A stretch of 64,000 bases of DNA from Pseudofrankia saprophytica (GCF_000235425.2 NZ_KI912266.1:7184720-7248719), one strand, 5' to 3'. Positions 39,129-61,950 are shown, counted from the first letter of the stretch. Made by a program: numbers and translations. The notes: generated by a model from the letters alone, not told the origin.

Positions 39129-39437
39129 TTGCAGATCAAGAGCGGCGCCCGCCTGCGTAGCCAGGTCGATTCCACCGAACTCGTGGTCGTACGTCCGATT
39201 CCCGGGGAGGTCGCGCTGACCTGCGGCGGCCATCCGATGATCGACGTCAAGGCCGAGCCCCAGCCCGGTCTGGCCGTTCTGGACGGTGCTACTGGCGAGA
39301 CCCAGCAGGGCAAGCGCTACATCCTCGCCGACACCGGCCTGGAGATCCTGGTGACGAAGCCGGGCACCAGCGCCCTCGCCATCGGCGCCCAGCCCCTCGT
39401 CCTCAAGGAAGCCCGTCCCCTCCCATCCAGCGACTGA
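39129..39437 (+). CDS. conserved small protein of unknown function
   Basis: 102 residues. The start is TTG at 39129, supported by AAGGAG 8 bases upstream. It opens MQIKSGARLRSQVDSTELVV and has a single Cys in ALTCGGHPMIDV; GKRYILADTGLEILVTKPG suggests a small all-beta fold. No family was recognised. The base composition and codon pattern look native. It follows the P450 gene in the same direction by about 235 bases with a hairpin between. A role as a small redox or binding partner is only a guess from position. Confidence 0.75.
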   Translation: MQIKSGARLRSQVDSTELVVVRPIPGEVALTCGGHPMIDVKAEPQPGLAVLDGATGETQQGKRYILADTGLEILVTKPGTSALAIGAQPLVLKEARPLPSSD

Positions 39438-40075: not shown

Positions 40076-40078
40076 TCC

Positions 40079-41167
40079 TCAGAGGCCCAGCGCCGCGGAA
40101 AGATCGTCGACGTTCACCTCGGGCACGGCGGGCACGTCGACCTCCAGCGCGTCGGGGTCGATGCCGAGCATCCAGGCGAGCGTGCCCTTGCCGAGGGTGC
40201 CGGACTCGATGCCGGCGAGGTGCGCTTCCTGAAGCGGGAGCGGGAAGCGGCGGCGCGCGGCGGCGTCCATGCGCAGGGTGATCTCGTCGAAGCTCGCGCC
40301 GACGGCCCAGTGACGTCGCAGCAGGCGTTGGGTGGGCTGACTGGCCCATTCCCGGAGGATGGCCGGCAGCTCACCGTTCAGGGCGTTCAGCCTGCGGGCG
40401 AGCGCATCGATGGACACCCCCCACTGCCACAGGATCTCGGCCAGGCCGGCCGCGTCCAGCGAGTTCCAGTCGATCGAGGCGAGCAGCACGCGCGGAAGGA
40501 GCAGGTCGGCGGCGAACGCGTTCGCCGCCGCCTCGTGCCGGTCACGCTCGGCTTCGGAAATTCCTTGATCGTGGTGAGCGAGCGCGAGGTGGCCCAGTTC
40601 GTGAGCCATCGACCAGTTCTCCCAGAACCAGTTGCCCGTGGCCGGCAGGACGATCACTCGATGCCCACCGAGCGTGAACGAGTACGCGGTGGACAGTTCG
40701 GCGACCCGCACGACGTCGACGCCGAATCGGGCCTCCAGCCGATCCGCGAACGGCCGCACGAAGTCCTCGCCCAGCGCGGCCCGGACCCGGTCGGCGGTGG
40801 CCGGGAGCTGGGAGACAGGTTTCGCCTGGAGGCCGCCCTGGCGATACGTCAGCGCGACGTCGCGCAGCACCTGGTCGTCGGCCTCGCGGTCGGGGACGTC
40901 CCGCCGGCCCGTCTCGTGGTCGAACCGGTGCCGCGCCGCGACCACCAAGCGGTTCGGGTCCGGCTGCCCGGTGATCAGCCAGTGAATGTCGGCGTCCAGC
41001 TCATCGGCCAGCCGAGCCACCTCGATCGAGGAGAAGGCCCGTTTCCCGTTCAGCGCACGCGAGAACGCGTCGGGAGTCATCCCGATCTTCTCCGCGAGAT
41101 CCCGGTGCAGGGCACCAGGGCGGGCGCGCCCGATCAGCTCCAACGCCCGTTCTCCGATGCCGTGCAT
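40079..41167 (-). CDS. XRE helix-turn-helix fused to an ImmA/IrrE-type metallopeptidase
   Basis: 362 residues. Residues about 10-60 form an XRE-type helix-turn-helix (LAEKIGMTPDAFSRALNGKRAFS). The peptidase motif HELGHLALAH lies near 190, and EAAANAFAADLLLP near 213 gives the third zinc ligand, as in ImmA/IrrE (COG2856). ImmA-type proteases cut repressor proteins on stress. The C-terminal part (about 240-362) is a longer all-helical region of unknown role. The start is leaderless: TAGCGT ends 6 bases before ATG 41167 with TTGGGA 18 bases further up. It is the first gene of the operon with the PIN-like protein. Confidence 0.9.
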   Translation of the reverse strand: MHGIGERALELIGRARPGALHRDLAEKIGMTPDAFSRALNGKRAFSSIEVARLADELDADIHWLITGQPDPNRLVVAARHRFDHETGRRDVPDREADDQVLRDVALTYRQGGLQAKPVSQLPATADRVRAALGEDFVRPFADRLEARFGVDVVRVAELSTAYSFTLGGHRVIVLPATGNWFWENWSMAHELGHLALAHHDQGISEAERDRHEAAANAFAADLLLPRVLLASIDWNSLDAAGLAEILWQWGVSIDALARRLNALNGELPAILREWASQPTQRLLRRHWAVGASFDEITLRMDAAARRRFPLPLQEAHLAGIESGTLGKGTLAWMLGIDPDALEVDVPAVPEVNVDDLSAALGL

Positions 41168-42766: not shown

Positions 42767-44479
42767 CTAGGACCTCCGCAGCAGGATGGCGCCGGCCGGG
42801 GCGAGTCCCCCGGTGCTGACGGCGGCGACCGAGCATCCGTCGACCTGGCGGGCCCCACCCTCGCCGCGCAGCTGGACCACCGCCTCGTGGATCATTCCCA
42901 TGCCGTGCGTCCGGCCGGCCGACAGCTGGCCGCCGTGGGTGTTCAGCGCCACGACCCCGTCCTTGAGGGCGATGTTGTGACCACCGGCGACGAAGTCGGC
43001 GGCCTCGCCGATCCCGCAGAATCCCAGGGCCTCCAGCCAGGACAGGCAGTTGAAGGTGAACCCGTCGTACAGCTCGGCCACCTGGACGTCGGCCGGCCGC
43101 AGCGACGTTCGGGACCACAGGTGCGCGGACGGCCCGAGGGTCTGCGGCTCGTGGCTGGTCGTGCTCTGGTGCCACAGGAAGCGCTCGGTGATCTGGGTGC
43201 CGACCGCCTCGACCAGGACGGGCGGCTTGGGGCGGTCCTGGGCCGTCTCCACCGCGGAGACGATGACGGCGAGGCTCGCGTCCATCGGCACGTCACAGTC
43301 GTAGAGCCCGAACGGAGTCGTGATCATCCGGGCGCTCAGGTAGTCGTCCATCGTCATGGGCTCGCGGTAGACGGCGTCGGGATTGAGCGCCGCGTTCGCC
43401 CGCTGGTTGATCGCGATCCAGCCCAGCGCCTCGCGCGTCGCGCCGTAGCGGTGGAAGTAGTTCGAGGCGATCATCGCGAGGTTGAGGGCGACCGAACCGA
43501 CCCCGTAGGGGGCGACGTACCCCTGCGGTCCCGCGACCCGACCGGTCCTGCCGATGCCGTACGGGCTGCCGCCTCCGGGGTTGGCCGCCCGCTGCTGGGC
43601 GGCGTAGGTGGCCTGCCACACCGTCCGGAAGCACAGCACGTGGCGGGCCAGGCCACTCGCGACGGCGAGCATCGCGGCGACGACGGCGCCGCCGGGGCCG
43701 AAGGTCTCCGAGCCGCCGTTGTACCAGGTCGGCCGGATGCCGAGGGCGTCCGCGACCACCATCACGCCGCCCTCGGTGAAACCGCCAATCAGCTCGCCGC
43801 CCGGATAGGTCGACAGCCCGTCGATGTCGGACAGCTCGAGACCCGCGTCGGCGACGGCGGCCTTGGCCGCCGCGACCGCGAGCGTGAGCGGCGGCAGCAT
43901 GAGCCGCCGGCCGACCGGGGACATGCCGATCCCCGTGATCGCCACCCGGTCCTCGAACTTGTCGGCCCGCGCCATCGGCCGCACGTACCGGGCGTGCTCA
44001 CCCGGCGCGATCGGGTCGTCCGGGAGGTCTCCGAACGCCTCGCCATCACCATCGCCGGGCCGGACCGGCGCGAACACCGGTAGCCACACGTCCTCGGCGG
44101 GCTCGAACCGGACGCGCACGCGCTGCCCCACCGCCGCCCCGCCCGGCGGCACGTCCACCAGGTTCGTGACCAGCCGGGCCCTGGGGTCGTCGTCGAGGGC
44201 GACCGAGCCGACGACGAACGGCGGCGGGAAGGCCGGCTCCCACGGCTGGTGGTTGACGGTGACGCCGACCACGGTGCCGAGCCCGCTCACCTCGGCGGCG
44301 CCGAGGCGCTCGGAGTGGCAGTAGCAGCAGACCGGCTGGGGCGGGTGCACCAGCGACGCGCAGTCCTGGCACCGCTGGATCCGCAGGACGCCGTCACGGC
44401 CCGCGGTCCAGTAGAAGCCGTTGAGATCGTCGAGGGCCGGGAATGGCCGGGCGGGCGGAGGGCTCGCGTCGGACGTCAT
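42767..44479 (-). CDS. fused DUF35-thiolase-like protein (candidate retro-aldolase)
   Basis: 570 residues. Residues about 15-150 are DUF35: zinc ribbon CQDC and CCYC near 37-55, then the OB fold (GLGTVVGVTVNHQPW). Residues about 175-570 are a thiolase-like domain (RVAITGIGMSPVG, AAVADAGLELSDIDGL, VAELYDGFTFNCLSWLEALGF, NTHGGQLSAGRTHGMGMIHEAV). The thiolase nucleophile Cys pattern is not evident; the Tyr in ELYDGFT recalls the Ltp2 aldolase, whose partner DUF35 domain is supplied by ChsH2. Here both parts are one chain. It would cleave a beta-hydroxyacyl-CoA side chain. Leaderless start; divergent from the dehydrogenase at 44546. Confidence 0.9.
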   Translation of the reverse strand: MTSDASPPPARPFPALDDLNGFYWTAGRDGVLRIQRCQDCASLVHPPQPVCCYCHSERLGAAEVSGLGTVVGVTVNHQPWEPAFPPPFVVGSVALDDDPRARLVTNLVDVPPGGAAVGQRVRVRFEPAEDVWLPVFAPVRPGDGDGEAFGDLPDDPIAPGEHARYVRPMARADKFEDRVAITGIGMSPVGRRLMLPPLTLAVAAAKAAVADAGLELSDIDGLSTYPGGELIGGFTEGGVMVVADALGIRPTWYNGGSETFGPGGAVVAAMLAVASGLARHVLCFRTVWQATYAAQQRAANPGGGSPYGIGRTGRVAGPQGYVAPYGVGSVALNLAMIASNYFHRYGATREALGWIAINQRANAALNPDAVYREPMTMDDYLSARMITTPFGLYDCDVPMDASLAVIVSAVETAQDRPKPPVLVEAVGTQITERFLWHQSTTSHEPQTLGPSAHLWSRTSLRPADVQVAELYDGFTFNCLSWLEALGFCGIGEAADFVAGGHNIALKDGVVALNTHGGQLSAGRTHGMGMIHEAVVQLRGEGGARQVDGCSVAAVSTGGLAPAGAILLRRS

Positions 44480-44545: not shown

Positions 44546-45886
44546 GTGTGGGATTTCGAGACCGAGCCCGAGTTCCAGGAGAAGCTGGACTGGGCGGAGC
44601 AGTTCGTGCGCGAGGAGGTCGAGCCCCTCGACGCGCTGTGGCGGCACAAGGTGTTCGAGCGTCCGGTCGACCCGACGCTGGCCCGCATCGTCGGACCGCT
44701 CAAGCAGCAGGTACGTGACCATGGGCTCTGGGCCTGCCACCTTGGCCCCGAGCTCGGTGGCCCGGGCTACGGACAGGTGAAGCTCGCTCTCCTGAACGAG
44801 CTCATCGGGCGCGCCGCCTGGGGCCCGGTCATCTTCGGCACCGCCGCGCCCGACACCGGCAACGCCGAGATCCTCGCCCACTACGGCACCGACGAGCAGA
44901 AGCGCCTCTACCTGCAGCCGCTGCTGGACGGCGACATCGTCTCGTGCTTCGCCATGACCGAGCCCCAGGGCGGCTCCGACCCGAGGGTCTTCACCACCAC
45001 CGCCGTCCGCGAGGGCGACGAATGGGTGATCAACGGTCTGAAGTTCATGGCCTCGCACGCCAAGTGGGCCGCGTTCTACATCGTCATGACCGTGACGAAC
45101 CACGACGTCGACATCCACCGCGGCGCGTCGATGTTCATCGTGCCGGCCGACACGCCTGGCATCGAGATCGAGCGCAACATGGCGCTGTTCGGCCACGAGC
45201 CGGTCGGTGAGGGCACGCACGGCCTGGTCCGCTTCACCGACGTCCGGGTGCCGGCCGAGAACATCCTCGGCGGCGAGGGGCAGGCCTTCGCCATCAGCCA
45301 GACCCGGCTCGGCGGCGGGCGCATCCACCACGCGATGCGCACCGTGAGCCAGGCCCGCCGGGCGCTGGACATGATGGTCGAGCGGGCGCTGAGCCGCGAG
45401 ACCCGCGGCAGCGTGCTCGCCAAGAAGCAGTCGGTGCAGAACTACATCGCCGACTCCTACGCCGAGCTCATGCAGTTCCGCCTCTTCGTGCTGTACGTGG
45501 CCTGGCGGATCGACAAGCTCAAGGACTACCAGGCCGTGCGGCACGACATCGCCGCGGTGAAGGTGCTCACCCCGCAGGTGATGCACAACATCACCCAGCG
45601 GTCGCTGCAGGTGCACGGCGCCCTGGGGACGACGAGCGACCTGCCGCTGAACGAGTGGTTCTCCGGGTCGATGATCCTGGGCCTCGCCGACGGGCCCAGC
45701 GAGGTGCACCGGCTGACGGTCGCCCGCAAGGTGCTGAGCGAGGGCAAGGCCACCGACGGCCTGTGGCCGACGCAGTGGCTGCCGCTGCGGCAGGAGGCGG
45801 CCCGCAAGAAGTTCGCAGAGTTCCTCGAGCCAGCCGAGTTCCTCGAGCCAGCGGAGCTCCTCGAGCCGCAGGACGCGGGCGCGTGA
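44546..45886 (+). CDS. acyl-CoA dehydrogenase, ACAD10/11-like
   Basis: 446 residues. HLGPELGGPGYGQVKLALLNE near residue 68, AMTEPQGGSDPRVFTT near 137, QTRLGGGRIHHAMRTV near 253, and LQVHGALGTTSDLPLNEW near 355 are typical of the ACAD10/11 branch. The usual catalytic YEGT position reads ADGP (LGLADGPSEVHRL). The gene downstream encodes an APH-type kinase and overlaps the stop, the bacterial split form of ACAD10/11 (kinase plus dehydrogenase). The C-terminus repeats FLEPAE three times (DNA 45821-45874). GTG 44546 has GGGAGG 6 bases upstream. A close paralogue is at 53359-54657. Confidence 0.92.
   Translation: MWDFETEPEFQEKLDWAEQFVREEVEPLDALWRHKVFERPVDPTLARIVGPLKQQVRDHGLWACHLGPELGGPGYGQVKLALLNELIGRAAWGPVIFGTAAPDTGNAEILAHYGTDEQKRLYLQPLLDGDIVSCFAMTEPQGGSDPRVFTTTAVREGDEWVINGLKFMASHAKWAAFYIVMTVTNHDVDIHRGASMFIVPADTPGIEIERNMALFGHEPVGEGTHGLVRFTDVRVPAENILGGEGQAFAISQTRLGGGRIHHAMRTVSQARRALDMMVERALSRETRGSVLAKKQSVQNYIADSYAELMQFRLFVLYVAWRIDKLKDYQAVRHDIAAVKVLTPQVMHNITQRSLQVHGALGTTSDLPLNEWFSGSMILGLADGPSEVHRLTVARKVLSEGKATDGLWPTQWLPLRQEAARKKFAEFLEPAEFLEPAELLEPQDAGA
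45821..45874 (+). repeat. in-frame 18-bp tandem repeat
   Basis: Three 18-bp units encoding FLEPAE, FLEPAE and LLEPQD at the end of the dehydrogenase. The paralogue at 53359 lacks them, so this is a recent expansion. Confidence 0.85.
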
Positions 45887-46926
45887 GTGCGGTCGTGAGC
45901 AGCGCGTCGACCATCGACGTCGACGCGCTGGGAAGCTGGATGGACTCGCGCGACCTGCCGGGACGGGGCCTGCCGGTCGAGGCTCGGCTGCTGTCCGGCG
46001 GGCGGCAGAACGAGATCTTCGAGATCCGGCGGGGCGACTTCGCCGCGGCGCTGCGCAAGCCGCCCGCGGCGGCGCCGGCCGAACGTGACGCCGGGATCCT
46101 GCGGGAGTGGCGCCTCATCGAGGCGCTCACCGGGACCGACGTGCCGGTCGCCGACGCCATCGCCGCCTGCGACGACCCGAGCGTGATCGGCCGCCCCTTC
46201 TACCTGATGGACGTGGTCGACGGCTGGTCGGTGATGAACACGCCGGGCTGGTGGGCGCCGCCGTTCGACACCGACCTCGCCGCCCGCGGCGAGCTGGCGC
46301 ACGAGCTGATCAACGGCATCGTGCTGATGGGCGCGGTCGACTGGAAGGCCCGCGGCCTCGGCGACCTCGGGCGGCCGGACGGCTACCACGACCGGCAGGT
46401 CGAGCGCTGGACCCGCTTCTACCAGCGGATCCGGGCCCGCGAGGTCCCGGGGCTCGACGAGGCGACGGCGTGGCTCGCCAACCACCGGCCGCTCGACTTC
46501 GTGCCGGGCATCATGCACGGCGACTACCAGTTCCCGAACGTCATGTTCCGCCACGGCGCACCCGGGCGGCTCGCGGCGATCCTCGACTGGGAGATGGGCA
46601 CGGTCGGCGACCCGAAGCTGGACGTCGCCTGGGCGCTGCACAGCTGGCCCGAGGACCCCACCGGACCGTCGGACAACGAGTACCTCGTCGGCATGCCGTC
46701 CCGGTCCGCGCTCCTCGCCTTCTACGCCGAACGCTCGGGCCGGCAGGTCGATGACTTCGACTACTACCTGGTACTGGCAAAATGGAAACTCGCGATCGTG
46801 CTGGAGCAGGGCTACCAGCGCGCGAACGGCGATCCGAAGCTCGAGGACTTCGGTGGGTACGTGGTCAAGTACATGCGGGAGGCGGCGGAGATCGCCGAGT
46901 CCAGCGACTACCCAGCGGTGTCGTGA
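45883..46926 (+). CDS. APH-family kinase (ACAD10/11 kinase-like)
   Basis: 347 residues with the aminoglycoside-phosphotransferase fold. The catalytic loop reads IMHGDYQFPNVMF near residue 209 (His-x-Asp-x4-Asn) and the metal-binding ILDWEMGTVGDPKLDVAW follows near 230. N-terminal lysine region: AALRKPP near 57. In animals the same domain is fused to ACAD10/11, and in the levulinate pathway LvaA phosphorylates a 4-hydroxyacyl-CoA before an ACAD-family enzyme removes phosphate. By analogy it may phosphorylate a hydroxyacyl-CoA for the dehydrogenase upstream. The GTG overlaps that gene's stop (GTGA), so equal translation is expected. Resistance to aminoglycosides is unlikely. Confidence 0.88.
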   Translation: MSAVVSSASTIDVDALGSWMDSRDLPGRGLPVEARLLSGGRQNEIFEIRRGDFAAALRKPPAAAPAERDAGILREWRLIEALTGTDVPVADAIAACDDPSVIGRPFYLMDVVDGWSVMNTPGWWAPPFDTDLAARGELAHELINGIVLMGAVDWKARGLGDLGRPDGYHDRQVERWTRFYQRIRAREVPGLDEATAWLANHRPLDFVPGIMHGDYQFPNVMFRHGAPGRLAAILDWEMGTVGDPKLDVAWALHSWPEDPTGPSDNEYLVGMPSRSALLAFYAERSGRQVDDFDYYLVLAKWKLAIVLEQGYQRANGDPKLEDFGGYVVKYMREAAEIAESSDYPAVS

Positions 46927-46984
46927 CGGAGGTGGGGACGGTGCCCGTCACATCTGCCGCGTCGGCTGATCGCGGAAGCGGCCT

Positions 46985-47689
46985 GTGAGCACACGCGACG
47001 TCGACCCGAGTGCGATCCGCAGGTTCGCCTCGGGTCGGCGGGCCTACGGCAACCTCAAGGACGAGGCGGCCGACTTCATCCGGGACGCGATCGTCTCCGG
47101 CGCGTTGCCGCCGCGCAGCAAGGTCGATCAGGACGAGATCGCGGACACTCTCGGGATCAGCCGCGCCCCGGTCCGCGAGGCCCTCATCGAGCTGGCGCAG
47201 AAGGGCTTCGTCGACGCCGTGCCCCGCCGCGGCGCGTTCGTCGCCGACGTCACCGTCGAGGACATCGAGGACCACTACGAGGTGGTGGCGCTGGTCTCGG
47301 GGATGACGGCGAAGCGAGCGGTCAAGAGGTTGACGCCGGTGGAGCTCGCCGAGCTCCGCCGGCTGCACCAGCAGATCGCCACGACCGACGACGTGACCCA
47401 GGTGCAGGCACTCAACCGCCGGTTCTTCCACGTGATCGCGAATGCCGGGAGATCGCCGCGCCTCGACACGATCCTGCGGTTCCTCGGCGGCGCGCTGCAG
47501 GGCAGCTTCTACTTCGACGCGCCCGGGTGGGTGGGCAACGAGGCGACCTACCGGGAGCAGATGCTCGGCGCGATCGAGGCGGGCGACGTGGTGGCGACGG
47601 CGCGGATCAGCGAGGAACACGTGCGTTCCTGCGCCGCCGTCACCACCAGCCACCTGCGCACCCGCGGCTACTGGCCCGACACCACGTAG
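46985..47689 (+). CDS. GntR family regulator (FadR/FCD subfamily)
   Basis: 234 residues. The winged helix lies at about residues 20-80 (DFIRDAIVSGALPPRSKVDQDEIADTLGISRAPVREALIEL, then RRGAFVAD). The C-terminal all-helical FCD domain is present with LNRRFFHVIANAGRS (Asp/His metal-type region is partly degenerate). FCD regulators bind small carboxylates or acyl-CoA. The GTG at 46985 is 58 bases after the kinase gene, so it may be co-transcribed and control the dehydrogenase/kinase pair. No operator was recognised. Confidence 0.9.
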   Translation: MSTRDVDPSAIRRFASGRRAYGNLKDEAADFIRDAIVSGALPPRSKVDQDEIADTLGISRAPVREALIELAQKGFVDAVPRRGAFVADVTVEDIEDHYEVVALVSGMTAKRAVKRLTPVELAELRRLHQQIATTDDVTQVQALNRRFFHVIANAGRSPRLDTILRFLGGALQGSFYFDAPGWVGNEATYREQMLGAIEAGDVVATARISEEHVRSCAAVTTSHLRTRGYWPDTT

Positions 47690-47733
47690 GTCTCCGGCGG
47701 CCGCCGGGCCAGCCGCGGGCGACGCGGGCGACG

Positions 47734-49257
47734 CTACTGCTCGCCGGGGCCGGGATTCTCTCTGAGCTCGGCGAGGGCGCTTCGGTTGATCTTGCCAGTG
47801 TCGGCGCGGCCCAGGTCGTCGGCGAGCTCGAAGGTCCTGGGGACCTTGTAGCCCGCGAGATGGCTCTTGCAGTGAGAGCGGAGCGCGTCCGCGAGGCCGT
47901 CCCGGCCGGCCTCTGGCCGTGGTTGGACGATGGCGTGCACCCGCCGGCCCCATTCGGCGTCGCGCAGGCCGATCACCACGGCGTCCTCGACGTCCGGGTG
48001 CCGCAGCAGGGCGGCCTCGACCTCGGAGACGTAGACGTTGGCCCCGCCGGTGACGACCATGTCGGTTCGGCGGTCGGCGATGTAGAGATAGCCGTCCTCG
48101 TCCACCCTGCCGAGGTCCCCGATCGAGACGTAGCCTCCCGGCCGGGTACGCGGCGCCGCGTGGCCGATGTACCGGACGTCCCGCGTTCCCTGGACCGGAC
48201 GGAAGTAGAGCTCGCCCACCTCCCCCGCCGGCAGTTCCGCTCCGTCCTCGTCGACGACCAGGACCTCGGTTCCCGCCGGGCGCCCGACACTGCCCGGATG
48301 CCGCAGCCACTCGTCGCCGCGAATCTGCGCGCTGCAGACTCCCTCCGAGGATCCGTAGCCCATGATGAAGCGTTCCGGGCCGACGATGTCGATCCATTCC
48401 CGAACCACCCACTCCGGGCAGGCGCCCGCGCCCTGGATGACTCGGCCGAGACTGGAGAGATCCCTTTCGCGGATGCCCGGGCTACGCAACAACCGGGTCA
48501 ACATGGTCGGCACGAATGCCGCCATGACGACTCTTTCCTTCTCGATGAGATCCAGTACCTGTTCCACGTCGAACCGGGATACCAGAACGTTCCGGTAACC
48601 GTCCACGAGGGTGTGGTGCAGCATGGCGAAGCCCTGCGTGTGGTAAAGCGGCGAGCAGACCAGGTTCACGGGATGACGAGTGCCGGCGGTGTCCCCGAAA
48701 AGGGCGGGGCCGACCGCTCGCGCGCCTGAGGGCACGATCGTCGACGTCGAGGAGGCGATCAGTTTCGGCGCCCCGGTCGACCCACCCGACGCTATGAGCC
48801 ACGCCGGGCTCGACACGACCGACGGGAGTCGCGCCGGCGGGGCCGCGTCGGCGGCGCCCATCAGCTCGTCGGCGGCCACCTCCTGGTCAGCGGCGGGTCG
48901 ACCGTCCACCACGACCACGGCCGGGCCGGCCAACTCGAGCAGCCGCCGGCGCTCGGGCCCCGGCAGGCCAGGGCGTAACGGCAGCACGGTCGCGCCCAGT
49001 CGCCAGGCGCCGAGAGTGCAGACGACGTGCGCGCAGCGATTGGGCAGCTCGACGCAGACGACGTCCCCGGGCTGTATCCCAAATCCGTTCAGCCGGGCGG
49101 CCACCAGATTGCCTCGCCGCGCGAGCTCACCCCATGTCAGGGTCTCGCCACCTAAAGCCGTGGTCGTCAGGGCAATGAGTTCTGGATGCGCGGCGGCCAG
49201 CTCGTCCATGCGCTCCGGCCAGGTCAGGTGACCCACCGGCGCGGTCATCGCGGTCAT
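47734..49257 (-). CDS. AMP-forming acyl-CoA ligase
   Basis: 507 residues of the ANL superfamily. The phosphate loop is the variant LIASGGSTGAPKLI near residue 157; FIMGYGSSEG near 292; IGDLGRVDEDGYLYIADRRTDMVVTGGANVYVSEVE near 375; and the catalytic Lys in DTGKINRSAL near 490. The SGGSTGAPK loop and spacing resemble bile-acid/aryl-CoA ligases rather than long-chain FadD. It converges with the GntR gene (45 bases between stops). It supplies a CoA ester to one of the nearby pathways; which one is not shown. Confidence 0.92.
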   Translation of the reverse strand: MTAMTAPVGHLTWPERMDELAAAHPELIALTTTALGGETLTWGELARRGNLVAARLNGFGIQPGDVVCVELPNRCAHVVCTLGAWRLGATVLPLRPGLPGPERRRLLELAGPAVVVVDGRPAADQEVAADELMGAADAAPPARLPSVVSSPAWLIASGGSTGAPKLIASSTSTIVPSGARAVGPALFGDTAGTRHPVNLVCSPLYHTQGFAMLHHTLVDGYRNVLVSRFDVEQVLDLIEKERVVMAAFVPTMLTRLLRSPGIRERDLSSLGRVIQGAGACPEWVVREWIDIVGPERFIMGYGSSEGVCSAQIRGDEWLRHPGSVGRPAGTEVLVVDEDGAELPAGEVGELYFRPVQGTRDVRYIGHAAPRTRPGGYVSIGDLGRVDEDGYLYIADRRTDMVVTGGANVYVSEVEAALLRHPDVEDAVVIGLRDAEWGRRVHAIVQPRPEAGRDGLADALRSHCKSHLAGYKVPRTFELADDLGRADTGKINRSALAELRENPGPGEQ

Positions 49258-49832
49258 GAGCCGATTCTAGGACGCGGTACGCGGACGATCCACGAAACGA
49301 CGGCCCGCGAGAATGACGGCGCGCGGGAATTCGCCAATTCGGTTTCACCACGACGGCGGACGAGCAGACGTGCCACTCGATGGCGATCATTGTCCCGGAC
49401 GGAACCCGTCGGCGAGGGATCCGTGACCGGCCCGAAGCCAGGCGCACATGATGACGACCGCCGAGTTCCGCCGCGTCACGCCGGAGCGTGGATGCGCCAG
49501 CCGGTCTTCTCTGCCAGGCTCACCGTCTCCGCCAGATCTTCGGGAACCGGCATCGGGAATCCCGAGCCCGCGAACGATCCGATGGCCGGCCGGTGACAGG
49601 CTCCGGACCAGTGCGGTGTTCGAGAGGGTGGGCACCCAGGCCGATGTTGACCAGGTTCGAGCGGGTCACTACTGTCGCAGCCAGCAGGGACGCACCCGAC
49701 AGTCCAGCCGGACATGCGACGACCTATACGCCGACTCGGGCCGCCGAAGGAGAAACGGCGCAGGTGCCGCCTGCCGTCGCCGCGCAGCGAAATGGACGGC
49801 CCTGCTATCGCCTTCCAAGTAGGATTGGAGCC
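49258..49832. other. 575-base region without a recognised gene
   Basis: All frames here are short and lack family features; one minus-strand frame near 49476-49560 reads PEDLAETVSLAEKTGWRIHAP, which looks protein-like and could be a gene remnant. The region may hold the promoters of the ligase (minus) and of the toxin-antitoxin pair (plus). Confidence 0.5.
49820..49825 (+). promoter_or_regulatory. -10 hexamer for a leaderless antitoxin transcript
   Basis: TAGGAT ends 7 bases before the GTG at 49833. GGAG also lies 8 bases before the second GTG at 49839, so start choice is open. Confidence 0.4.
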
Positions 49833-50051
49833 GTGCCGGTGACCAAGGTGTCGCTCACGCTCGACTCAGACCTGGTGCAGGAGGCCCGCGAGCGGGTCGG
49901 GCCGAGGGAGCTTTCCGCCTACATCAACGCCGCTCTGCGGCAGCGGCTGCAGCACGATCGGCTGGCTGAGTTCCTCGCTGCCTCAGACGAGGAAGCTGGC
50001 CCTGTCCCAGAGGAGGACATCGAGGAGGCGCGTCGGTGGTTCCGGCCGTGA
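49833..50051 (+). CDS. VapB-type antitoxin
   Basis: 72 residues. The N-terminal VTKVSLTLDSDLVQEARERVGPRELSAYINAALRQRL region is a ribbon-helix-helix or AbrB-like DNA-binding segment of antitoxins, followed by an acidic C-terminus (EEAGPVPEEDIEEARRWF) that would wrap around the toxin. It overlaps the PIN-domain toxin gene by 4 bases (GTGA), the standard order. It likely neutralises the toxin and represses its own promoter. GTG 49839 would shorten it by two residues. Confidence 0.85.
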   Translation: MPVTKVSLTLDSDLVQEARERVGPRELSAYINAALRQRLQHDRLAEFLAASDEEAGPVPEEDIEEARRWFRP

Positions 50052-50473
50052 CGAGGCGGCGTCCACCCAGCGGCCCACTCGGTATCCCGTTCGTGCTCGA
50101 CACCGGTGCGGTGATCGCGTTGTCCCGGCTCGACAAGACGGCGCGAACGATGCTCGCCGCCGCTCTGCGTGAGCAGTCTCAGGTCTGGGTTCCCGCTCCC
50201 GTCATCACCGAGCTCGTCCGCGGCAATCAGCGGCGAGATACCGCCGTCAACCGCGTGTTGAAGTCCGTCAGCGATGTCCATCCGCTCGACGAACCGCTCG
50301 CGCGGGAGGCCGGCAGGTTGCTCGCCGGTGGCGGCACGGCAGTGGACGCCATGGTGGTGGCGACCGCGCAACGTGTCGCGGGCGCCGGCTCAGTGGTGAT
50401 AATGACGAGCGATCCCCGTGACATCACAGCACTTGCCGCGGACGACTCACGGATACGAGTGGCGGCTGCATGA
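50048..50473 (+). CDS. PIN-domain toxin (VapC-like)
   Basis: 141 residues. PIN nuclease acidic residues are seen in FVLDTGAVIALSR (Asp near residue 18), APVITELVRGN (Glu near 55), TAVDAMVVATA (Asp near 98) and VIMTSDPRDITAL (Asp near 119). VapC toxins cut specific RNAs and are held inactive by VapB. The GTG start overlaps the antitoxin stop. It is unrelated in detail to the PIN-like protein at 39533-40075. The pair stands alone between metabolic genes, as is common for mobile toxin-antitoxin modules. Confidence 0.9.
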   Translation: MTRRRPPSGPLGIPFVLDTGAVIALSRLDKTARTMLAAALREQSQVWVPAPVITELVRGNQRRDTAVNRVLKSVSDVHPLDEPLAREAGRLLAGGGTAVDAMVVATAQRVAGAGSVVIMTSDPRDITALAADDSRIRVAAA

Positions 50474-50584
50474 CCCCGTCTTCCCGGGTCGTACGCGGCG
50501 TTCTCCCCGGCTCTGCCTGCGCCCGTCGTGGCGAGCGTAGGCAGAGCCGGTCGCGCGAGACGGGTGACCACGGCCGTACGGCGT

Positions 50585-51790
50585 CTACAGGGTGATGGGC
50601 AGGTGCTTGTGGCCGCGGACTGTGCTGGTGTGCAGCATCTCGACGCCACCCCGGTCGATCTCCCACTTCGGGAAGCGGCGCAGCGTCTCCTCCAGCGCGA
50701 CGCGCGTCTCCATCCGGGCAAGCGCCGCGCCGAGGCAGAAGTGGATGCCATGGCCGAGGGAGACGTGGCCGTCGACCTTGCGGCGGATGTCGAACCGGTC
50801 TGGGTCGGGGAACCTGCGTTCGTCGCGGCCGGCGGACGCGGTCAGCAGCAGCACCTTGGACTTCGCCGGGATCGTCACGCCGTGCAGCTCGACGTCGCGC
50901 AGGGCGGTGCGGCCCTGCACCGCCGACGGCGCGGCGTAGCGCAGCAGCTCCTCGACGGCGTTCGGGATCAGTCCCGGGTCCTCGGCGAGGTCCGCGCGCG
51001 CCTCCGGGTTCTCGGCGAGGATGAGGCCGGCCCAGCCGACCAGCCGGGCGACGGTCTCGGTCCCGGTGCTGACGAGCAGGCAGGCGAAGTCCGTCGCCTC
51101 CTCGCTGGTCAGCCGGCGGGTGCCGCCGTCCTCGGTGCGCATCTCGGCCTCGACCAGGGCGGTCATCATGTCGTCGCGTGGGTTCGCACGGCGGGACTCG
51201 ATCGCGTCGCCGAAGTAGTCGTACAGCTTGATCTGGGCGCCGAACGAGATGTCGTTGACGATGCCCTTGTTCTCGTCGATGTGAAACGCCTGGTCGATCG
51301 TCCGACGAATCTCCTCGCGGTCGGCCTCCTCGACGCCGAGCAGCTCGGACATGACCCTCGACGGCAGCTGGGCCGAGAACTCCTGGACGTAGTCGAAGCC
51401 GGCGGAGCCGAGGTGCGGGTCGAGCAGCTCTGCGGACACCGACCGGATGTAGGGCTCCAGCTCGGCGATGCGCCGCGGGGTGAAGGCCCGGGAGACCAAC
51501 AGCCGGATCGCGGTGTGCGCCGGCGGGTCCTTGAAGATCATGAATCCGGTGTCCATCGGCTCCGAACTCATGATCTCCAGCACCGTGCCGTAGACGGAGC
51601 TGAAGGTCGCCGGGTCGCGGTGGGCGGCGTCGACATCCTCGTGCCGTGACAGCGCGTAGAAGTCGAGCCGGTCGTTGCGGTAAACGGGCGCCTCGTCGCG
51701 CAGTCGACGCCAGACCGGATACGGGTCGACGTCGATCGCCTTGTCAAATGGGTCCCAGTACAGATCGCGCACAGCCGAAACCCTCGCCAC
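50585..51790 (-). CDS. cytochrome P450
   Basis: 401 residues. I-helix LVSTGTETVARLVGW near residue 240, ExxR as EELLR near 285 and heme loop LGHGIHFCLGAALAR near 345 are present. It is a paralogue of the P450 at 37702-38892, sharing the opening and the end (FPKWEIDRGGVEMLHTSTVRGHKHLPITL versus FPKWDLDLSGAELIHTATIRGYHKLPVVL in short). GTG 51790 follows a TATAAT box by 4 bases; a second in-frame GTG at 51772 with GAGGG 9 bases upstream is the alternative start. No ferredoxin gene is adjacent. It probably hydroxylates a lipophilic acid. Confidence 0.93.
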   Translation of the reverse strand: MARVSAVRDLYWDPFDKAIDVDPYPVWRRLRDEAPVYRNDRLDFYALSRHEDVDAAHRDPATFSSVYGTVLEIMSSEPMDTGFMIFKDPPAHTAIRLLVSRAFTPRRIAELEPYIRSVSAELLDPHLGSAGFDYVQEFSAQLPSRVMSELLGVEEADREEIRRTIDQAFHIDENKGIVNDISFGAQIKLYDYFGDAIESRRANPRDDMMTALVEAEMRTEDGGTRRLTSEEATDFACLLVSTGTETVARLVGWAGLILAENPEARADLAEDPGLIPNAVEELLRYAAPSAVQGRTALRDVELHGVTIPAKSKVLLLTASAGRDERRFPDPDRFDIRRKVDGHVSLGHGIHFCLGAALARMETRVALEETLRRFPKWEIDRGGVEMLHTSTVRGHKHLPITL

Positions 51791-52256
51791 CGTGATTATA
51801 ATTGGTATTTACCTCGACCAAATCGGAGCATAGTCGGCGACGGAGATCCCTCCAGGCGGCGGCGGCGAGGCCTGGTGGGTGGTGCGTCACACCGCATTTC
51901 TAATCCCGCCGGCCGAACTACGTCACGACAACATTTCAAAGAGGACGTCGCCCCACACGCCCGGCGTCTCACCTCGTGACACATCGCGCCTACCCTCCGC
52001 GTGCGGCGCGACGGATGACCTGGGCGATCGCGCGGGCGGCGCCCAAAACTGTCGTCCATCGGCAACGGCCCGGACAGTCCCATTCGCTACGCCCAAGACG
52101 CCGCGGGAGGTCTGAACCCCGCGACGCCGGCTCACCAGGACGGACACGGAGTTCGATCCCGCCGGTGGCCCCGCTTTCCGGCCGAGGAGCCCACCTCGGC
52201 GTGGATCTCCGCCGTTAGGCCGTACCAATCGCGACGCATCCATCAATGCGGCACCT
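51791..52256. other. 466-base region without a recognised gene
   Basis: It lies between the P450 promoter and the 3' end of the kinase gene. Frames are short and Arg-rich with no family match. It contains the P450 promoter at its left end and nothing else recognised. Confidence 0.5.
51795..51800 (-). promoter_or_regulatory. consensus -10 box of the P450 gene
   Basis: A perfect TATAAT on the minus strand, 4 bases before the GTG at 51790. The distance would put the transcription start inside or just at the GTG, which supports either leaderless initiation or the downstream GTG at 51772. Confidence 0.6.
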
Positions 52257-53366
52257 TCAGGCGGGCCGGTTTTCGGTCAGGATCCGCAGGGCGCGGCGGG
52301 CGAGCATTCTGACGGTTTCGCCGCGGGACGCCATACGTTCATCCGTCGACTCGCCGCGGGCATAGCGGGCGTAGAGCTGCTGGCGGATGACGGCGACCCG
52401 CCAGCAGGCGAACGCCTCATACCAGGCGACGGCGGCCAGGTCGAGGTCGCTGCGCGCGGCGTAACGGTCGATGACCTCGGCGCGGGTAGGCAGGCCGAGC
52501 GTGTCCATGCCCGGGTCGTGGATGGCGTGGTCGTCGTCCGTGTCGGCCGGGTCGGGCCAGTAGTTCAGCAGGGTGCCCAGGTCGACCAGCGGGTCGGCGA
52601 GCGTCGCCATGTCCCAGTCGAAGACGGACGCGACCCGCTCGGGGTGCCCGGGCCGGAACTGGCAGTTGTTGACTTTGAAGTCGTTGTGCACGAGCGCCGC
52701 GGCCTGGCTGGCCGGCAGGTGGCGGGACAGCAGGTCGGCGGTCCGCGTCATCGCGGCGTCGTGCGCCGGATCGGCCCATGTCGCGACCCGCCCCCAGCGG
52801 TCGCGCCAGCCGGCCAGCTGCCGCTCGAGAAAACCGTCCGGACGTCCGAGCCGGTCCAGGTCGCAGCCGGCGGGGTCGACCGCGTGCAGGTCCGCGAGCG
52901 CGTCGACGGTCGCGAGCCCCAGTTGGTGCGCCCCGGCGCGCCCACCCAGCTCGGGCGGGATCACGCCCCACACCACGGTGCCGGGACGGTACTCGGAGAC
53001 AAGAAAGTCGCTGCCGGCGACGTCCGGGTCGTCGCAGAACAGGAATGCGCGCGGCGCGCGGTCGTAGACCCGCCACAGCCGGGAGAGCACCCGGTGCTCC
53101 CGGCGCATGTCGTGCGCTCCCGGCGCCAGGACGCCGAACGGCGGGCGCCGCAGGACGAAACGCCGGTCGCCGAACCGGACGAGGTAGGTGAGGTTGGCCG
53201 AGCCGTTCGGGAACTGCGCCACCTCCATCGGCTCGTCGACGCCGAGCCGCGGAGCCAGGTAGTCCCGGATCCCGGCCCAGTCCAGCTCCTGGCCGGGGCG
53301 GACGGGGGCGACCTCGGGTGGGATCCCGGGCGCGGGCGGGATCCCCGGCGCGGGCGGTTCAGTCAC
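52257..53366 (-). CDS. APH-family kinase (ACAD10/11 kinase-like), second copy
   Basis: 369 residues. The catalytic loop is LVHNDFKVNNCQF near residue 210 (His-x-Asp-x4-Asn) and the metal motif FDWDMATLADPLVDLGTLLNYW follows. The nucleotide lysine region is FVLRRPPFGVLAPGAHDM near 70. It has a Pro-rich N-terminus (about residues 1-20) encoded by GCGGGATCCC-type repeats. The GTG start overlaps the end of the ACAD gene by 8 bases. It repeats the arrangement of 44546-46926 in the opposite orientation and likely phosphorylates a hydroxyacyl-CoA or hydroxy acid. Confidence 0.9.
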   Translation of the reverse strand: MTEPPAPGIPPAPGIPPEVAPVRPGQELDWAGIRDYLAPRLGVDEPMEVAQFPNGSANLTYLVRFGDRRFVLRRPPFGVLAPGAHDMRREHRVLSRLWRVYDRAPRAFLFCDDPDVAGSDFLVSEYRPGTVVWGVIPPELGGRAGAHQLGLATVDALADLHAVDPAGCDLDRLGRPDGFLERQLAGWRDRWGRVATWADPAHDAAMTRTADLLSRHLPASQAAALVHNDFKVNNCQFRPGHPERVASVFDWDMATLADPLVDLGTLLNYWPDPADTDDDHAIHDPGMDTLGLPTRAEVIDRYAARSDLDLAAVAWYEAFACWRVAVIRQQLYARYARGESTDERMASRGETVRMLARRALRILTENRPA

Positions 53367-54657
53367 CGTGGACGGCCCGCTCGATCTGCTCGGCGAACCG
53401 TTCGCGCGCGGCGGCCCGGCGCGCCGGCAGGTGCCCCGACGGGAAGGGGCCCGCGGCCGGCTCGAACTGCGCCAGCAACGTACGCGCGAGCGCGGTCCGG
53501 TGGACCTCCGTCGGGCCGTCGGCGAGCCCCATCTGGAAGCTTTCCAGCACCCAGGCGCCGAACGGCATCTCGTTGGAGATTCCCAGCGAGCCATGGATCT
53601 GCACCGCCCGCGCGGCGACGTCGTGCAGGACCTTCGGCATCGCAGCCTTCACCGCGTGAATGTCGGCGCGCACGCGGTCGTAGTCGTCGTAGCGGTCGAT
53701 CCGCCAGGCGGTGCGCAGCACGAGCAACCGGAACTGCTCGATCTCGATCCACGAGTCGGCGATCATCGCCTGCACGAGCTGCTTGCGGGCGAGCGGCTCC
53801 CCCTTGGTGAACCGGCTCAGCGCCCGCTCGCACATCATCGCGAACGCCTCGCGCACCAGCCCGACGGTCCGCATCGCGTGGTGGACGCGGCCGCCGCCGA
53901 GCCGGGTCTGCGCGACGGCGAAGCCCTGCCCGCGCTCGCCGAGCAGATGGTCGGCCGGCACCCGCACGTCCTGGTAGCGGATGTACGCGTGCGCCCCTTC
54001 CATCTCCTCGTGGCCCGCGACGCCGACGTTGCGCAGGATCGTGACTCCCGCGGTCTCAGCCGGGACGACGAACATCGACTGGCGGCGGTGCGGTGCCGCG
54101 TCGGGATCGGTGACCGCGAGCACGATGAGGAACGACGCGTAGCGGGCGTGGCTGGAGAACCACTTCTCGCCGTTGATCACCCACTGGTCACCGTCGAGCT
54201 CGGCCCGGGTGACGAACTGGGTCGGGTCGCTGCCGCCGCCCGGCTCGGTCATCGAGAAGGAGGACATGATCTCGCCCGCGACGAGCGGCTCGAGGTAGCG
54301 CTTCCTGAGCTCGTCGGTGCCGTAGCGGGCGAGGACCTCCGCGTTGCCCGAGTCGGGCGCCTGGCAGCCGAACACCACCGGCGCGGCGTGCGACCGGCCC
54401 AGGATCTCGTGCATGAGCGCCAGCTTGAGCTGCCCGTATCCCGGGCCGCCCAGCGCCGGGCCGAGATGGCAGGCCCAAAGGCCACGTTCGCGTACCTTCT
54501 CCTGAAGCGGCGGGATCAGTTCCCGGCGTAGCGGATCACGTAGGTCCCGCGCGTTCGTGACCACCAGATCGACCGGCTGCACCTCCTGGCGCACGAACTC
54601 GTCGATCCAGTCGAGCTCCGCCTGGAAATCGGCGTCCGTCTCGAAGTCCCATCCCAT
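53359..54657 (-). CDS. acyl-CoA dehydrogenase, ACAD10/11-like, second copy
   Basis: 432 residues. HLGPALGGPGYGQLKLALMHE near residue 68, SMTEPGGGSDPTQFVT near 137, QTRLGGGRVHHAMRTVG near 253, IHGSLGISNEMPFGAW near 355 and MGLADGPTEVHRTALART near 375, again with ADGP in place of the catalytic YEGT. It is a paralogue of the protein at 44546-45886 but lacks the C-terminal repeats. ATG 54657 has GGGAG 5 bases upstream; GTG 54663 is less likely. It is the first gene of the pair with the kinase, and divergent from an aldehyde dehydrogenase gene. Confidence 0.92.
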   Translation of the reverse strand: MGWDFETDADFQAELDWIDEFVRQEVQPVDLVVTNARDLRDPLRRELIPPLQEKVRERGLWACHLGPALGGPGYGQLKLALMHEILGRSHAAPVVFGCQAPDSGNAEVLARYGTDELRKRYLEPLVAGEIMSSFSMTEPGGGSDPTQFVTRAELDGDQWVINGEKWFSSHARYASFLIVLAVTDPDAAPHRRQSMFVVPAETAGVTILRNVGVAGHEEMEGAHAYIRYQDVRVPADHLLGERGQGFAVAQTRLGGGRVHHAMRTVGLVREAFAMMCERALSRFTKGEPLARKQLVQAMIADSWIEIEQFRLLVLRTAWRIDRYDDYDRVRADIHAVKAAMPKVLHDVAARAVQIHGSLGISNEMPFGAWVLESFQMGLADGPTEVHRTALARTLLAQFEPAAGPFPSGHLPARRAAARERFAEQIERAVHGD

Positions 54658-54788: not shown

Positions 54789-54830
54789 GTGGCACGGGCC
54801 GGCGCTCCAGTGCCAGATGCGGAGGAACTC

Positions 54831-56237
54831 ATGTCCGATGTTTCAATGATCATCGGCGGGGAGCGCCGGGCCGCCCCGTCGACCTTCGGCGTCGTCAACC
54901 CCGCGACCGGCGCGGTCCACGCCGACGCGCCCGACTGCTCCCGCGAGCAGCTCGACGAGGCGTTCGACGCCGCCGCCAAGGCCTTCCCCGACTGGCGCAA
55001 GGACGAGACCGCCCGCCGCACCGCACTGCGGGAGGCCTCGGCACGGCTCGCCGCGGCCGCGGACCGGATCGGCCCGGTCCTCACCGCCGAGCAGGGCAAG
55101 CCGCTGAAGGCCGCGAAGATGGAGCCGTTCGCCGCCAGCATGTGGCTGAAGTACTTCGCCGACCTGGAGGTCGGCCGCGAGGTCATCCAGGACGACGCCC
55201 GCGCCTACGCCGAGGTCGTCCGCCGCCCCGTCGGCGTCGTCGCCGCGATCACCCCGTGGAACTTCCCGATCGTGCTGTCGGCGTGGAAGATCGGCCCCGC
55301 GCTGCTCGCCGGCAACACGATGGTCCTCAAGCCCTCACCGTTCACGCCCCGCAGCACCCTGCTGATGGGCGAGATCCTCGCCGAGGTCCTCCCCCCGGGC
55401 GTCCTGAACGTCGTCTCCGGCGGCGACGAACTCGGCAGGTGGATGACCGCCCACCCCACCCCCCGCAAGATCAGCTTCACCGGGTCCGTCGCCACCGGCA
55501 AGCACATCGCCACCGCCGCCGCCCCCGACCTCAAAAGGGTCACCCTCGAACTCGGCGGCAACGACGCCGCGATCGTGCTCGACGACGCCGACCCGGCCGT
55601 CATCACCGAGAAGCTCTTCCGTGGCGCCTTCGACAACAACGGCCAGGTCTGCTCGGCCATCAAGCGCCTCTACGTCCCCGAGTCCCTGTACGACGACGTC
55701 GTCGACGCGCTGGCGGCCCGCGTCGCGCGGGTCAAGGTCGGCGACGGCATGGACCCGGCCTCCGAACTCGGCCCGGTCCAGAACCGACCCCAGTTCGAGC
55801 GGGTGTCCGGCCTCGTCGCCGACGCGCTCGCCGGCGGCGCGAAGGCGGCCACCGGCGGCGCACCGATCGACGGCCCCGGCTACTTCTTCGCACCGACCGT
55901 CCTGACCGGCGCCGCCGAGGGCACCCGCATCGTCGACGAGGAGCAGTTCGGCCCGGCGCTCCCGGTGATCTCCTACCGCGACGTCGACGAGGTCGTCGCC
56001 CGCGCCAACGCCACCATGTACGGCCTCTCAGGCTCGGTCTGGTCGGCCGACCCCGACCGGGCCGCCGGGGTCGCCGAACAACTCGACTGCGGCACCGCCT
56101 GGGTCAACACCCACGTCGCCCTCGGCCCGCACCAGCCCTTCGGCGGGTTCAAGTGGAGCGGCCTCGGCGTCGAGAACGGCCCCTGGGGCCTCGCCGGCTT
56201 CACCGAGATCCAGGTCCAGTACCGCGCCAAGAAATGA
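54831..56237 (+). CDS. NAD(P)-dependent aldehyde dehydrogenase
   Basis: 468 residues. PWNFPIVLSAWKIGPALLAGNTMVLKP near 142, FTGSVATG near 213, catalytic Glu in TLELGGNDA near 235, catalytic Cys in NNGQVCSAIKR near 269 and EEQFGPALPVISY near 366 are visible. Its LELGGND variant is common in succinate-semialdehyde or betaine-aldehyde-type enzymes. It oxidises an aldehyde to an acid. ATG 54831 is chosen because GGAGG lies 5 bases upstream; the longer frame has no family similarity. It is separate from the aldehyde dehydrogenase at 36057 (low similarity). Confidence 0.92.
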   Translation: MSDVSMIIGGERRAAPSTFGVVNPATGAVHADAPDCSREQLDEAFDAAAKAFPDWRKDETARRTALREASARLAAAADRIGPVLTAEQGKPLKAAKMEPFAASMWLKYFADLEVGREVIQDDARAYAEVVRRPVGVVAAITPWNFPIVLSAWKIGPALLAGNTMVLKPSPFTPRSTLLMGEILAEVLPPGVLNVVSGGDELGRWMTAHPTPRKISFTGSVATGKHIATAAAPDLKRVTLELGGNDAAIVLDDADPAVITEKLFRGAFDNNGQVCSAIKRLYVPESLYDDVVDALAARVARVKVGDGMDPASELGPVQNRPQFERVSGLVADALAGGAKAATGGAPIDGPGYFFAPTVLTGAAEGTRIVDEEQFGPALPVISYRDVDEVVARANATMYGLSGSVWSADPDRAAGVAEQLDCGTAWVNTHVALGPHQPFGGFKWSGLGVENGPWGLAGFTEIQVQYRAKK

Positions 56238-58149: not shown

Positions 58150-58271
58150 CCTAGGTGTTGCGGCCGCCGTTGACGCCGATGATCTGGCCGGTGATGTAGC
58201 TGGCCTCGTCGCGGCACAGGAACGAGGTGGCCGCCGCGATGTCCTCCGGCTTACCCGCCCGGCGGACCGGG
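58150..58271. repeat. 122-bp block identical to 59852-59973
   Basis: The last 40 codons of the SDR at 58151 are base-for-base identical to those of the SDR at 59853. Outside this block the two genes differ often. Gene conversion or a very recent exchange is likely. Confidence 0.95.
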
Positions 58272-58906
58272 ACCCTGGTGGCGTGCTCCTCGACCGAGGT
58301 GCCGAGGTAGCCCTTCTCCTCGGACCTGCGCAGCATCGGGGTGTCGACGAAACCGGGCGGGATCGTGTTCACGGTGATGCCGCTGGGCCCCAGCTCCAGG
58401 GCCAGCGCCTTGGTGAAGCCGATCAGCCCGGCCTTGGACGACACGTAGTGCACCATGAACGCCTGGCCGCCCTGGGCGCTGGAAGACGAGATGTTCACGA
58501 TCCGGCCCCAGCCCGCCGCGGTCATGTCGGGCACGACCGCCTGGCAGCAGTAGAACGGCCCGCTCAGGTTCACCTTGAGCATCTTGTCCCACAGGTCATC
58601 GCTGATCTTCAGGAACTTGTTGCTGGCGGTGAGGCCTGCGTTGTTGACGAGCACCAGCACCGGGCCGTATGCCTCGCGGGCGCGGTCCATCGCCGCGTTC
58701 ACCTGCTCACGGCTCGACACGTCGACGCTGCCGAGGGCGATCGCCTCCCCGCCGTTCTTGCGCGCCTCCTCGGCCACCTGCTCGGCTGCCTCGGCGTTCA
58801 GGTCGAGGACGGCGACCGCGAGGCCGTCCTCGGCGAGCCGCAGCGAGATCGCCCGCCCGATGCCCGACCCGCCGCCGGTGACGACCGCTGTCCGTCGCTC
58901 GGTCAC
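58151..58906 (-). CDS. short-chain dehydrogenase/reductase (SDR), FabG-like
   Basis: 251 residues. Motifs: TGGGSGIG near residue 11, NNAG near 88, Ser in NISSSSAQGG and YVSSK. It ends YITGQIIGVNGGRNT, the same tail as the SDR at 59853 and encoded by identical DNA. It likely acts on a hydroxyacyl or cyclic alcohol substrate. The GTG at 58906 is chosen because GGAGG lies 9 bases upstream and because the paralogue starts at the matching place. Gap to the neighbouring SDR is 106 bases. Confidence 0.92.
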   Translation of the reverse strand: MTERRTAVVTGGGSGIGRAISLRLAEDGLAVAVLDLNAEAAEQVAEEARKNGGEAIALGSVDVSSREQVNAAMDRAREAYGPVLVLVNNAGLTASNKFLKISDDLWDKMLKVNLSGPFYCCQAVVPDMTAAGWGRIVNISSSSAQGGQAFMVHYVSSKAGLIGFTKALALELGPSGITVNTIPPGFVDTPMLRRSEEKGYLGTSVEEHATRVPVRRAGKPEDIAAATSFLCRDEASYITGQIIGVNGGRNT

Positions 58907-59012
58907 TACCGCGAACCTCCTTGGTAAAGGAACCTTCCCCATCCAGCCCTATCGGACCGGCGAGGCACGGCGCCCACAGTGGTGATGCAAGGCTCAACAG
59001 TCAACGTCGTCG

Positions 59013-59753
59013 TCAGCGCGCGACGTAGCCGCCGTCGACCGGCATGGCCACGCCGGTCATGAACGAGGACTCGTCACTGGCCAGGAAGAGCGCCGCCGCG
59101 GCGAGCTCCTCCGGACTGGCGAACCGGGCCATCGGGTTCGGCACCTTGATGTCCGCGGGCGGCGTGGGACCGGCCTGGGCGGCGGCCATGCCGGTCCAGG
59201 TCATGCCCGGGCAGACCGCGTTGACCCGGATGCCGGACTTCGCGTAGTCGAGGGCCGCCGACTTGGTGAGCAGCACGACGCCGCCCTTGGCCGCCGAGTA
59301 GCCGCCCTTGCCCTTCCAGCCGACCATCCCGGCGTTCGACGCCGTGTTGATGATCGAGCCACCGCCGGTCCGCAGCATCACGGGGACGGCGTACTTGATG
59401 CCGAGGAAGACGCCCTTGATGTTCACCGCGAGGAGGCGGTCGAGCGTCTCCTCGTCGAGCTCGTGGATCGGCCCGAACGGGCCGGAGATGCCGGCGTTGT
59501 TGAACAGCACGTCGAGCCGGCCGAACTCGCGCTCCGCCGTCTCGACCATGTTCTGGACCTCGGCGGCCACGGCCACGTCCACCGCCACCGCCACCGCGCC
59601 CGCGCCGATCTGCGCGGCCGTGTCCTTCTCGGAGCCGTTCAGGTCCGCGCACACGACCTTGGCGCCCTCGGCCGCGAACAGCAGCGCGGACGCCTTCCCG
59701 ATCCCGGACCCGGCACCCGTGACGATCGCGACCTTGCCGTCCAGCCTTCCCAC
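59013..59753 (-). CDS. short-chain dehydrogenase/reductase (SDR), FabG-like
   Basis: 246 residues. TGAGSGIG near 13, NNAG near 87, Ser in INTASNAG and YSAAK. The tail reads SSFMTGVAMPVDGGYVAR. It resembles the SDR at 13844-14599 more than its neighbours. GTG 59753 has GGAGG 5 bases upstream. It lies between two near-twin SDRs; three SDRs in one operon suggest successive oxidation or reduction of different positions of one molecule. Confidence 0.92.
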   Translation of the reverse strand: MGRLDGKVAIVTGAGSGIGKASALLFAAEGAKVVCADLNGSEKDTAAQIGAGAVAVAVDVAVAAEVQNMVETAEREFGRLDVLFNNAGISGPFGPIHELDEETLDRLLAVNIKGVFLGIKYAVPVMLRTGGGSIINTASNAGMVGWKGKGGYSAAKGGVVLLTKSAALDYAKSGIRVNAVCPGMTWTGMAAAQAGPTPPADIKVPNPMARFASPEELAAAALFLASDESSFMTGVAMPVDGGYVAR

Positions 59754-59851
59754 GACAACCTCCAGTGGACGCCGATGTCCTTACCGACTGCCCCAGCACC
59801 GACTGCCCCAGCGGCCGACGACCGCGACCCAGCCGAAGCCGGGGACGGCGT

Positions 59852-61572: not shown

Positions 61573-61594
61573 CGCGCGTTCGCCCCTGGCCCGC

Positions 61595-61936: not shown

Positions 61937-61950
61937 CTCGTGGGCTCCTT

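Follow-up and report, generated by a model that had tools for sequence, protein, structure and literature searches.

Two diverged acyl-CoA dehydrogenase and APH-fold kinase gene pairs of the ACAD10/11-LvaA/LvaC kind in Pseudofrankia saprophytica

A stretch of 64,000 nucleotides from the Pseudofrankia saprophytica genome (the window; G000:C1:7184720-7248719, 70 % GC, in a genome of approximately 10 Mb on two contigs) carries two gene pairs, pair A at 44546-46926 (+) and pair B at 52257-54657 (-), each consisting of an acyl-CoA dehydrogenase (ACAD) gene and an APH kinase gene. The assignment of both pairs to the ACAD10/11-LvaA/LvaC type, proposed in an initial annotation of the window, was well supported by sequence, active-site residues, phylogenetic trees, co-occurrence and fold searches. 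The chemistry of ACAD10/11 was not assigned until 2024-2025, through work on mammals and a small number of orthologues from bacteria; mammalian ACAD10 and ACAD11 act on 4-hydroxy acids, which are phosphorylated, after which the phosphate is expelled and fat breakdown continues (PMC12440821, PMC11342911).

Composition and family identity of the pairs

The reading frames, strands and overlaps initially given for both pairs were borne out, and the motifs ADGP (ACADs) and HxDxxxxN and DWxMxTxxDPxxD (kinases) were present in both. The genes of pair A share the 4 nt GTGA (45883-45886) and those of pair B the 8 nt GTGACTGA (53359-53366). Pfam searches placed three ACAD domains in each dehydrogenase and an APH domain (PF01636) in each kinase. 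Both ACADs are Asp-type, with LADGP where Glu-type ACADs have Glu (D380 in ACAD B, P0003), and the kinase motifs read HGDYQFPN and DWEMGTVGDPKLD in kinase A (P0002) and HNDFKVNN and DWDMATLADPLVD in kinase B (P0004). The initial description of the pairs as two copies had to be abandoned, since the ACADs are 54 % identical and the kinases 27.6-29 %, with the members in different clades; the pairs are diverged modules.

The best solved-structure matches of both ACADs were ACAD11 and 4HR3 (241-275 bits), compared with at most 153 bits for classical ACADs, and those of both kinases were 9O56, 3DXP and the ACAD11 kinase domain. P0002 scored 172.2 bits with 3DXP, 169.7 bits with 9O56 and 43.9 bits with the 25-hydroxy steroid kinase (25-HSK), which was not among the sequence matches of P0004. 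The closest solved structures are 4HR3 (a Mycobacterium abscessus ACAD), 3DXP (a Ralstonia eutropha kinase) and 9O56 (a kinase), for none of which was a published function found. Foldseek searches returned 4HR3 and ACAD11 as top matches of the predicted ACAD B model (pLDDT 76.9), and 3DXP followed by the 25-HSK structures 9FSG and 9FT5 for the predicted kinase A model (pLDDT 89.5). A grouping of the kinases with antibiotic phosphotransferases, considered in the initial annotation, was not found: P0002 reached 19-28 bits against NCBIfam antibiotic-kinase models whose curated cut-offs are 205-650, P0004 had no match to these models, and this identity was rejected.

The kinase and ACAD families of the window pairs are those of mouse and human ACAD10 and ACAD11 (PMC12440821, PMC11342911), although in the mammalian proteins the two domains are fused with the kinase N-terminal, whereas each window pair consists of two separate genes that overlap, the ACAD gene preceding the kinase gene. 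Over the part that can be aligned, ACAD B and mouse ACAD11 share approximately 42 % identity. In the published model of mouse ACAD11, R626, H634 and R637 bind the 4-phosphate and D753 is the catalytic base; Ala or Leu substitution of R626, H634 or R637 ablates elimination, 5-deazaFAD abolishes activity, and the three phosphate-binding residues are reported to be absent from conventional ACADs (PMC12440821). Their counterparts in ACAD B are R252, H260, R263 and D380, and ACAD A likewise has all four; the phosphate-binding residues are marked by the motif H-C/A-M-R. The four residues were invariant in 90/90 members of the window-type clade and in the six LvaC/ACAD11-clade members of the set (6/6), and their positions had not formed part of the search patterns with which the loci were fetched. 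Among 25 Glu-type ACADs of the same genome, R626 and H634 were found in none, and Arg occurred at the R637 position in four. The kinase residues R86, E87, R176, D220 and N225, which contact CoA or are catalytic in ACAD11, are kept in P0002, P0004 and 25/25 paired kinases. The window pairs thus possess the catalytic Asp, the phosphate-binding Arg/His/Arg and the kinase R86/R176/D220/N225 of ACAD10/11.

Phylogeny and linkage of dehydrogenases and kinases

In a quick tree of 103 ACAD rows, the Asp-type ACADs came together as a single clade, and the Glu-type ACADs of the genome fell outside it. LvaC, which shares the ACAD10/11-type active site (PMC12440821), was assigned to the ACAD10/11 clade on the basis of that published description; ACAD11, 4HR3, plasmid-borne LvaC-like proteins and one ACAD of the same genome (C1:6109575, with a kinase at C1:6108447) clustered together. 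Both window ACADs fell in a large sister clade of LvaC/ACAD11 (support 100/99), in different subclades. The phylogenetic placement suggested initially therefore holds at the level of the ACAD10/11-LvaC superclade, of which the window ACADs are members, but they are not orthologues of LvaC/ACAD11. The nearest grouping of kinase B was with 9O56, and the next deeper node joined it to the ACAD11 side.

Dehydrogenases and kinases have co-evolved, as their distances were correlated (Mantel r 0.73, p 1e-4, 25 pairs). The kinases of window-type ACADs were split into two clades; forcing them together gave p-AU 0.014, for a kinase group named after a tree had been seen, and the converse test on the ACADs gave p-AU 0.072. 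Support for a swap of kinase partners within the sister clade is only moderate. Kinase B has its closest relative in an unlinked kinase of the same genome at C1:5030k, and an ACAD at C1:5045k belongs to the ACAD B subclade, so that these look like a partner pair split by 15 kb.

Nine Asp-type ACADs were identified in the genome, of which seven scored more than 500 bits and the other two, which are divergent, approximately 300 bits. Six of the nine have a same-strand kinase within approximately 300 bp, so that the adjacency is not attributable to chance, and a seventh has a convergent, more distant APH gene. Both pairs proposed initially are thus real, but the genome holds about seven such modules rather than two. 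One of these is a canonical LvaC/ACAD11-like pair carrying the SSDAT motif, with the kinase first (C1:6108447-6110702). The divergent ACADs also stand beside kinases (C1:3506188-3508295 and C1:7317615-7319746); one keeps HCMR, and in the other HxMR is replaced by HGMW, with loss of the second Arg. Window-type ACADs were also seen beside distant-clade APH kinases at C1:7737128-7739346 and L141:6924-9302, possibly with a different partner or function.

The same gene order and overlap recur in Rhodococcus, Caulobacter and Massilia plasmids. Across the fetched loci, a same-strand kinase lay within 3 kb of 23/88 window-type or LvaC-type ACADs, and in each of the 20 genomes tested in which the ACAD was unlinked, such a kinase was present elsewhere. 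The two families also co-occur: of 119 genomes of the phylum, 46 had both, three had only the one and three only the other, and 67 had neither.

Predicted reaction and alternative explanations

Each pair is likely to act as a two-enzyme unit that removes the hydroxyl borne by an acyl-CoA at its gamma (4-) position; we infer both the chemistry and the 4-position from ACAD10/11 and LvaA/LvaC. The APH-fold kinase would use ATP to form a 4-phosphoacyl-CoA, whose phosphate the Asp-type ACAD would hold through R252, H260 and R263 (P0003 numbering). D380 would take the C2 proton and, with a redox-active FAD but no net oxidation, the phosphate would be expelled to leave a 2-enoyl-CoA for beta-oxidation. 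ACAD10-dependent phosphorylation is seen with 4- but not with 5- or 6-hydroxyhexanoate (PMC11342911), which makes a gamma-hydroxyl the default expectation; 3- or 5-hydroxy substrates appear unlikely for the window pairs.

The same two-step reaction is predicted for LvaA/LvaC of Pseudomonas putida and the Burkholderia orthologue, likewise encoded by separate kinase and ACAD genes, and the B. pseudomallei LvaA/LvaC orthologues stand in for the ACAD10 domains in vitro (PMC11342911). The levulinate-type context of the lva operon was not seen around the window pairs. No DUF6285 protein, which we take LvaB to be, was found in the genome.

Several observations weigh against this assignment of function. 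A long branch (approximately one change per site) separates the sister clade of the window ACADs from LvaC/ACAD11, and because of this and of the sister position itself, their substrate or hydroxyl position could differ; literature searches found no characterised bacterial member of the sister clade. The window ACADs carry GGSDP where members of the ACAD11/LvaC clade carry SSDAT, kinase A lies outside the ACAD11/3DXP/9O56 kinase clade in another well-supported clade, and the ACAD model has a pLDDT of 30-50 around D380, too weak to judge the pocket. Many window-clade ACADs have no adjacent kinase, and the association across the 119 genomes (Fisher p ~1e-25) is uncorrected for shared ancestry.

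One alternative is that the chemistry is the same but the skeleton or position differs, the substrates being, for example, branched, cyclic or tertiary gamma-hydroxyls and the enzymes not those of straight-chain 4-hydroxy fatty acids. We give this nearly even chances, and it overlaps with the gamma-hydroxyl reading wherever the hydroxyl is gamma. It is favoured by the sister-clade position, by the two kinase clades, by the separate canonical LvaC/ACAD11-like pair of the genome, and by the ACAD B clade loci, which hold a gene for a fused Zn-ribbon/OB-fold and thiolase/lipid-transfer protein (thiolase-OB) in 12/12 and a CoA-transferase III gene in 6/12. A further alternative, which we consider improbable, is that the kinases phosphorylate a free steroid or terpenoid side-chain hydroxyl and so drive an ATP-dependent dehydration, and that the ACAD works in the same pathway as an independent dehydrogenase. 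The model here is the Sterolibacterium 25-HSK (9FSG/9FT5), an APH-fold alcohol kinase that takes part in ATP-dependent dehydration in lipid catabolism, as predicted for the window kinases, acts on a tertiary alcohol and counts relatives among the actinobacteria (PMC8449060). Its structures follow 3DXP among the fold matches of kinase A, and among the genes of the island are one for a P450 and a thiolase-OB gene whose type is likewise known from the degradation of sterol side chains. Its substrate, however, is a non-CoA steroid, it is far less similar in sequence to the window kinases than ACAD11-type kinases are (44 vs 172 bits), and the CoA-contact residues R86 and R176 are retained in the window kinases; the tight co-evolution with an ACAD bearing the phosphate triad would then need another explanation. 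That ordinary ACADs merely lie by chance beside unrelated APH-like antibiotic or small-molecule kinases is so improbable that it was rejected: APH-fold genes are numerous (63 matches in the genome), but the scores with antibiotic-kinase models, far below cut-off or nil, and the recurrence of the adjacency in different phyla, together with the covariation and the special residues that never vary, speak against it, as do the co-occurrence and the kinases carried by genomes with unlinked ACADs.

Returning to the removal of gamma-hydroxyls, the two pairs would probably each take a different intermediate of a single catabolic pathway, lipid- or terpenoid-like, to which the CoA ligase, P450, aldehyde dehydrogenase and thiolase-OB of the block would also belong. 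It is plausible, from the differing kinase clades and the separate LvaC-like pair, that they act on different hydroxyacyl-CoA substrates. More tentatively, and with the odds against it, the sister family with its own co-evolving kinase clades (and a possible partner swap) might handle gamma-hydroxyls of branched or cyclic acyl-CoAs, in which case a single compound might here pass through two rounds of phosphorylation and elimination in succession, with a shared ligase and P450.

A sister branch that is widespread in bacteria and has all the active-site determinants, with many paralogous modules in a single genome, would make phosphorylation and elimination a general means of gamma-hydroxyl removal in bacterial lipid or terpenoid catabolism. 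The unfused pairs offer material for studies of specificity, and genes that carry the annotations 'phosphotransferase family protein' and 'acyl-CoA dehydrogenase' could be re-annotated as pairs.

Gene neighbourhood of the pairs

The features of the island are listed in Table 1. The block from the thiolase-OB gene to the aldehyde dehydrogenase gene is syntenic in a congener (L152), with approximately 88-94 % DNA identity to the window. Eight genes, including all four genes of the pairs, are under purifying selection, with dN/dS of 0.11-0.23 against the congener. The thiolase-OB and ACAD A genes diverge from a 66-bp intergenic region, in which a weak match resembling a promoter was seen towards the thiolase-OB gene.

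Table 1. Genes of the two pairs and their neighbours in the window
Feature	Position	Strand	Description
Thiolase-OB	42767..44479	-	Fused ChsH2-type Zn-ribbon/OB fold + thiolase/lipid-transfer protein; candidate C-C cleaving step
ACAD A (P0001)	44546..45886	+	Asp-type, ACAD10/11-LvaC superclade; predicted 4-phosphoacyl-CoA eliminase
Kinase A (P0002)	45883..46926	+	APH-fold, ACAD11/LvaA-type; predicted 4-hydroxyacyl-CoA kinase
GntR/FCD regulator	46985..47689	+	Directly 3' of pair A
AMP-forming acyl-CoA ligase	47734..49257	-	Between pairs A and B
Cytochrome P450	50585..51790	-	Between pairs A and B; candidate hydroxyl source
Kinase B (P0004)	52257..53366	-	APH-fold, ACAD11/LvaA-type; clade differs from kinase A
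ACAD B (P0003)	53359..54657	-	Asp-type, same superclade as ACAD A, other subclade; R252, H260, R263, D380
Aldehyde dehydrogenase	54789..56237	+	Divergent from pair B; kept in syntenic block of congener

The ACAD B clade loci held an AMP-forming ligase gene in 11/12 cases and a P450 gene in one. The three family locus sets had a P450 gene at a distance of up to 8 kb in 1/12, 0/4 and 1/13 loci. The link to P450 enzymes drawn in the initial annotation thus applies to this locus and one congener but does not extend across the family, and P450 was rejected as a general partner of the module.

Between the CoA ligase and P450 genes lies a pair of small genes (49488-50473) that resembles VapBC on inspection of the sequence. 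The region measures 1215 bp in the window and only 167 bp in the congener, for which reason the pair looks like an insertion. Also within the catabolic island, at 39533-41167, are a gene for a small PIN-type toxin-like protein (no Pfam match) and one with an M78 (ImmA/IrrE-like) peptidase domain. A protein of approximately 100 aa (VVVRP...LTCGG...GKRY...LPSSD) with no Pfam or NCBIfam match is encoded at 39129-39437 (+); homologues were seen in approximately nine fetched loci, mostly immediately 5' of a gene for an AMP-forming acyl-CoA ligase and often right after an ACAD/kinase pair. Beyond pair B comes a run of three same-strand SDR genes (58151-60608), and after it genes for TauD- and Rieske-type oxygenases (60736-63294).

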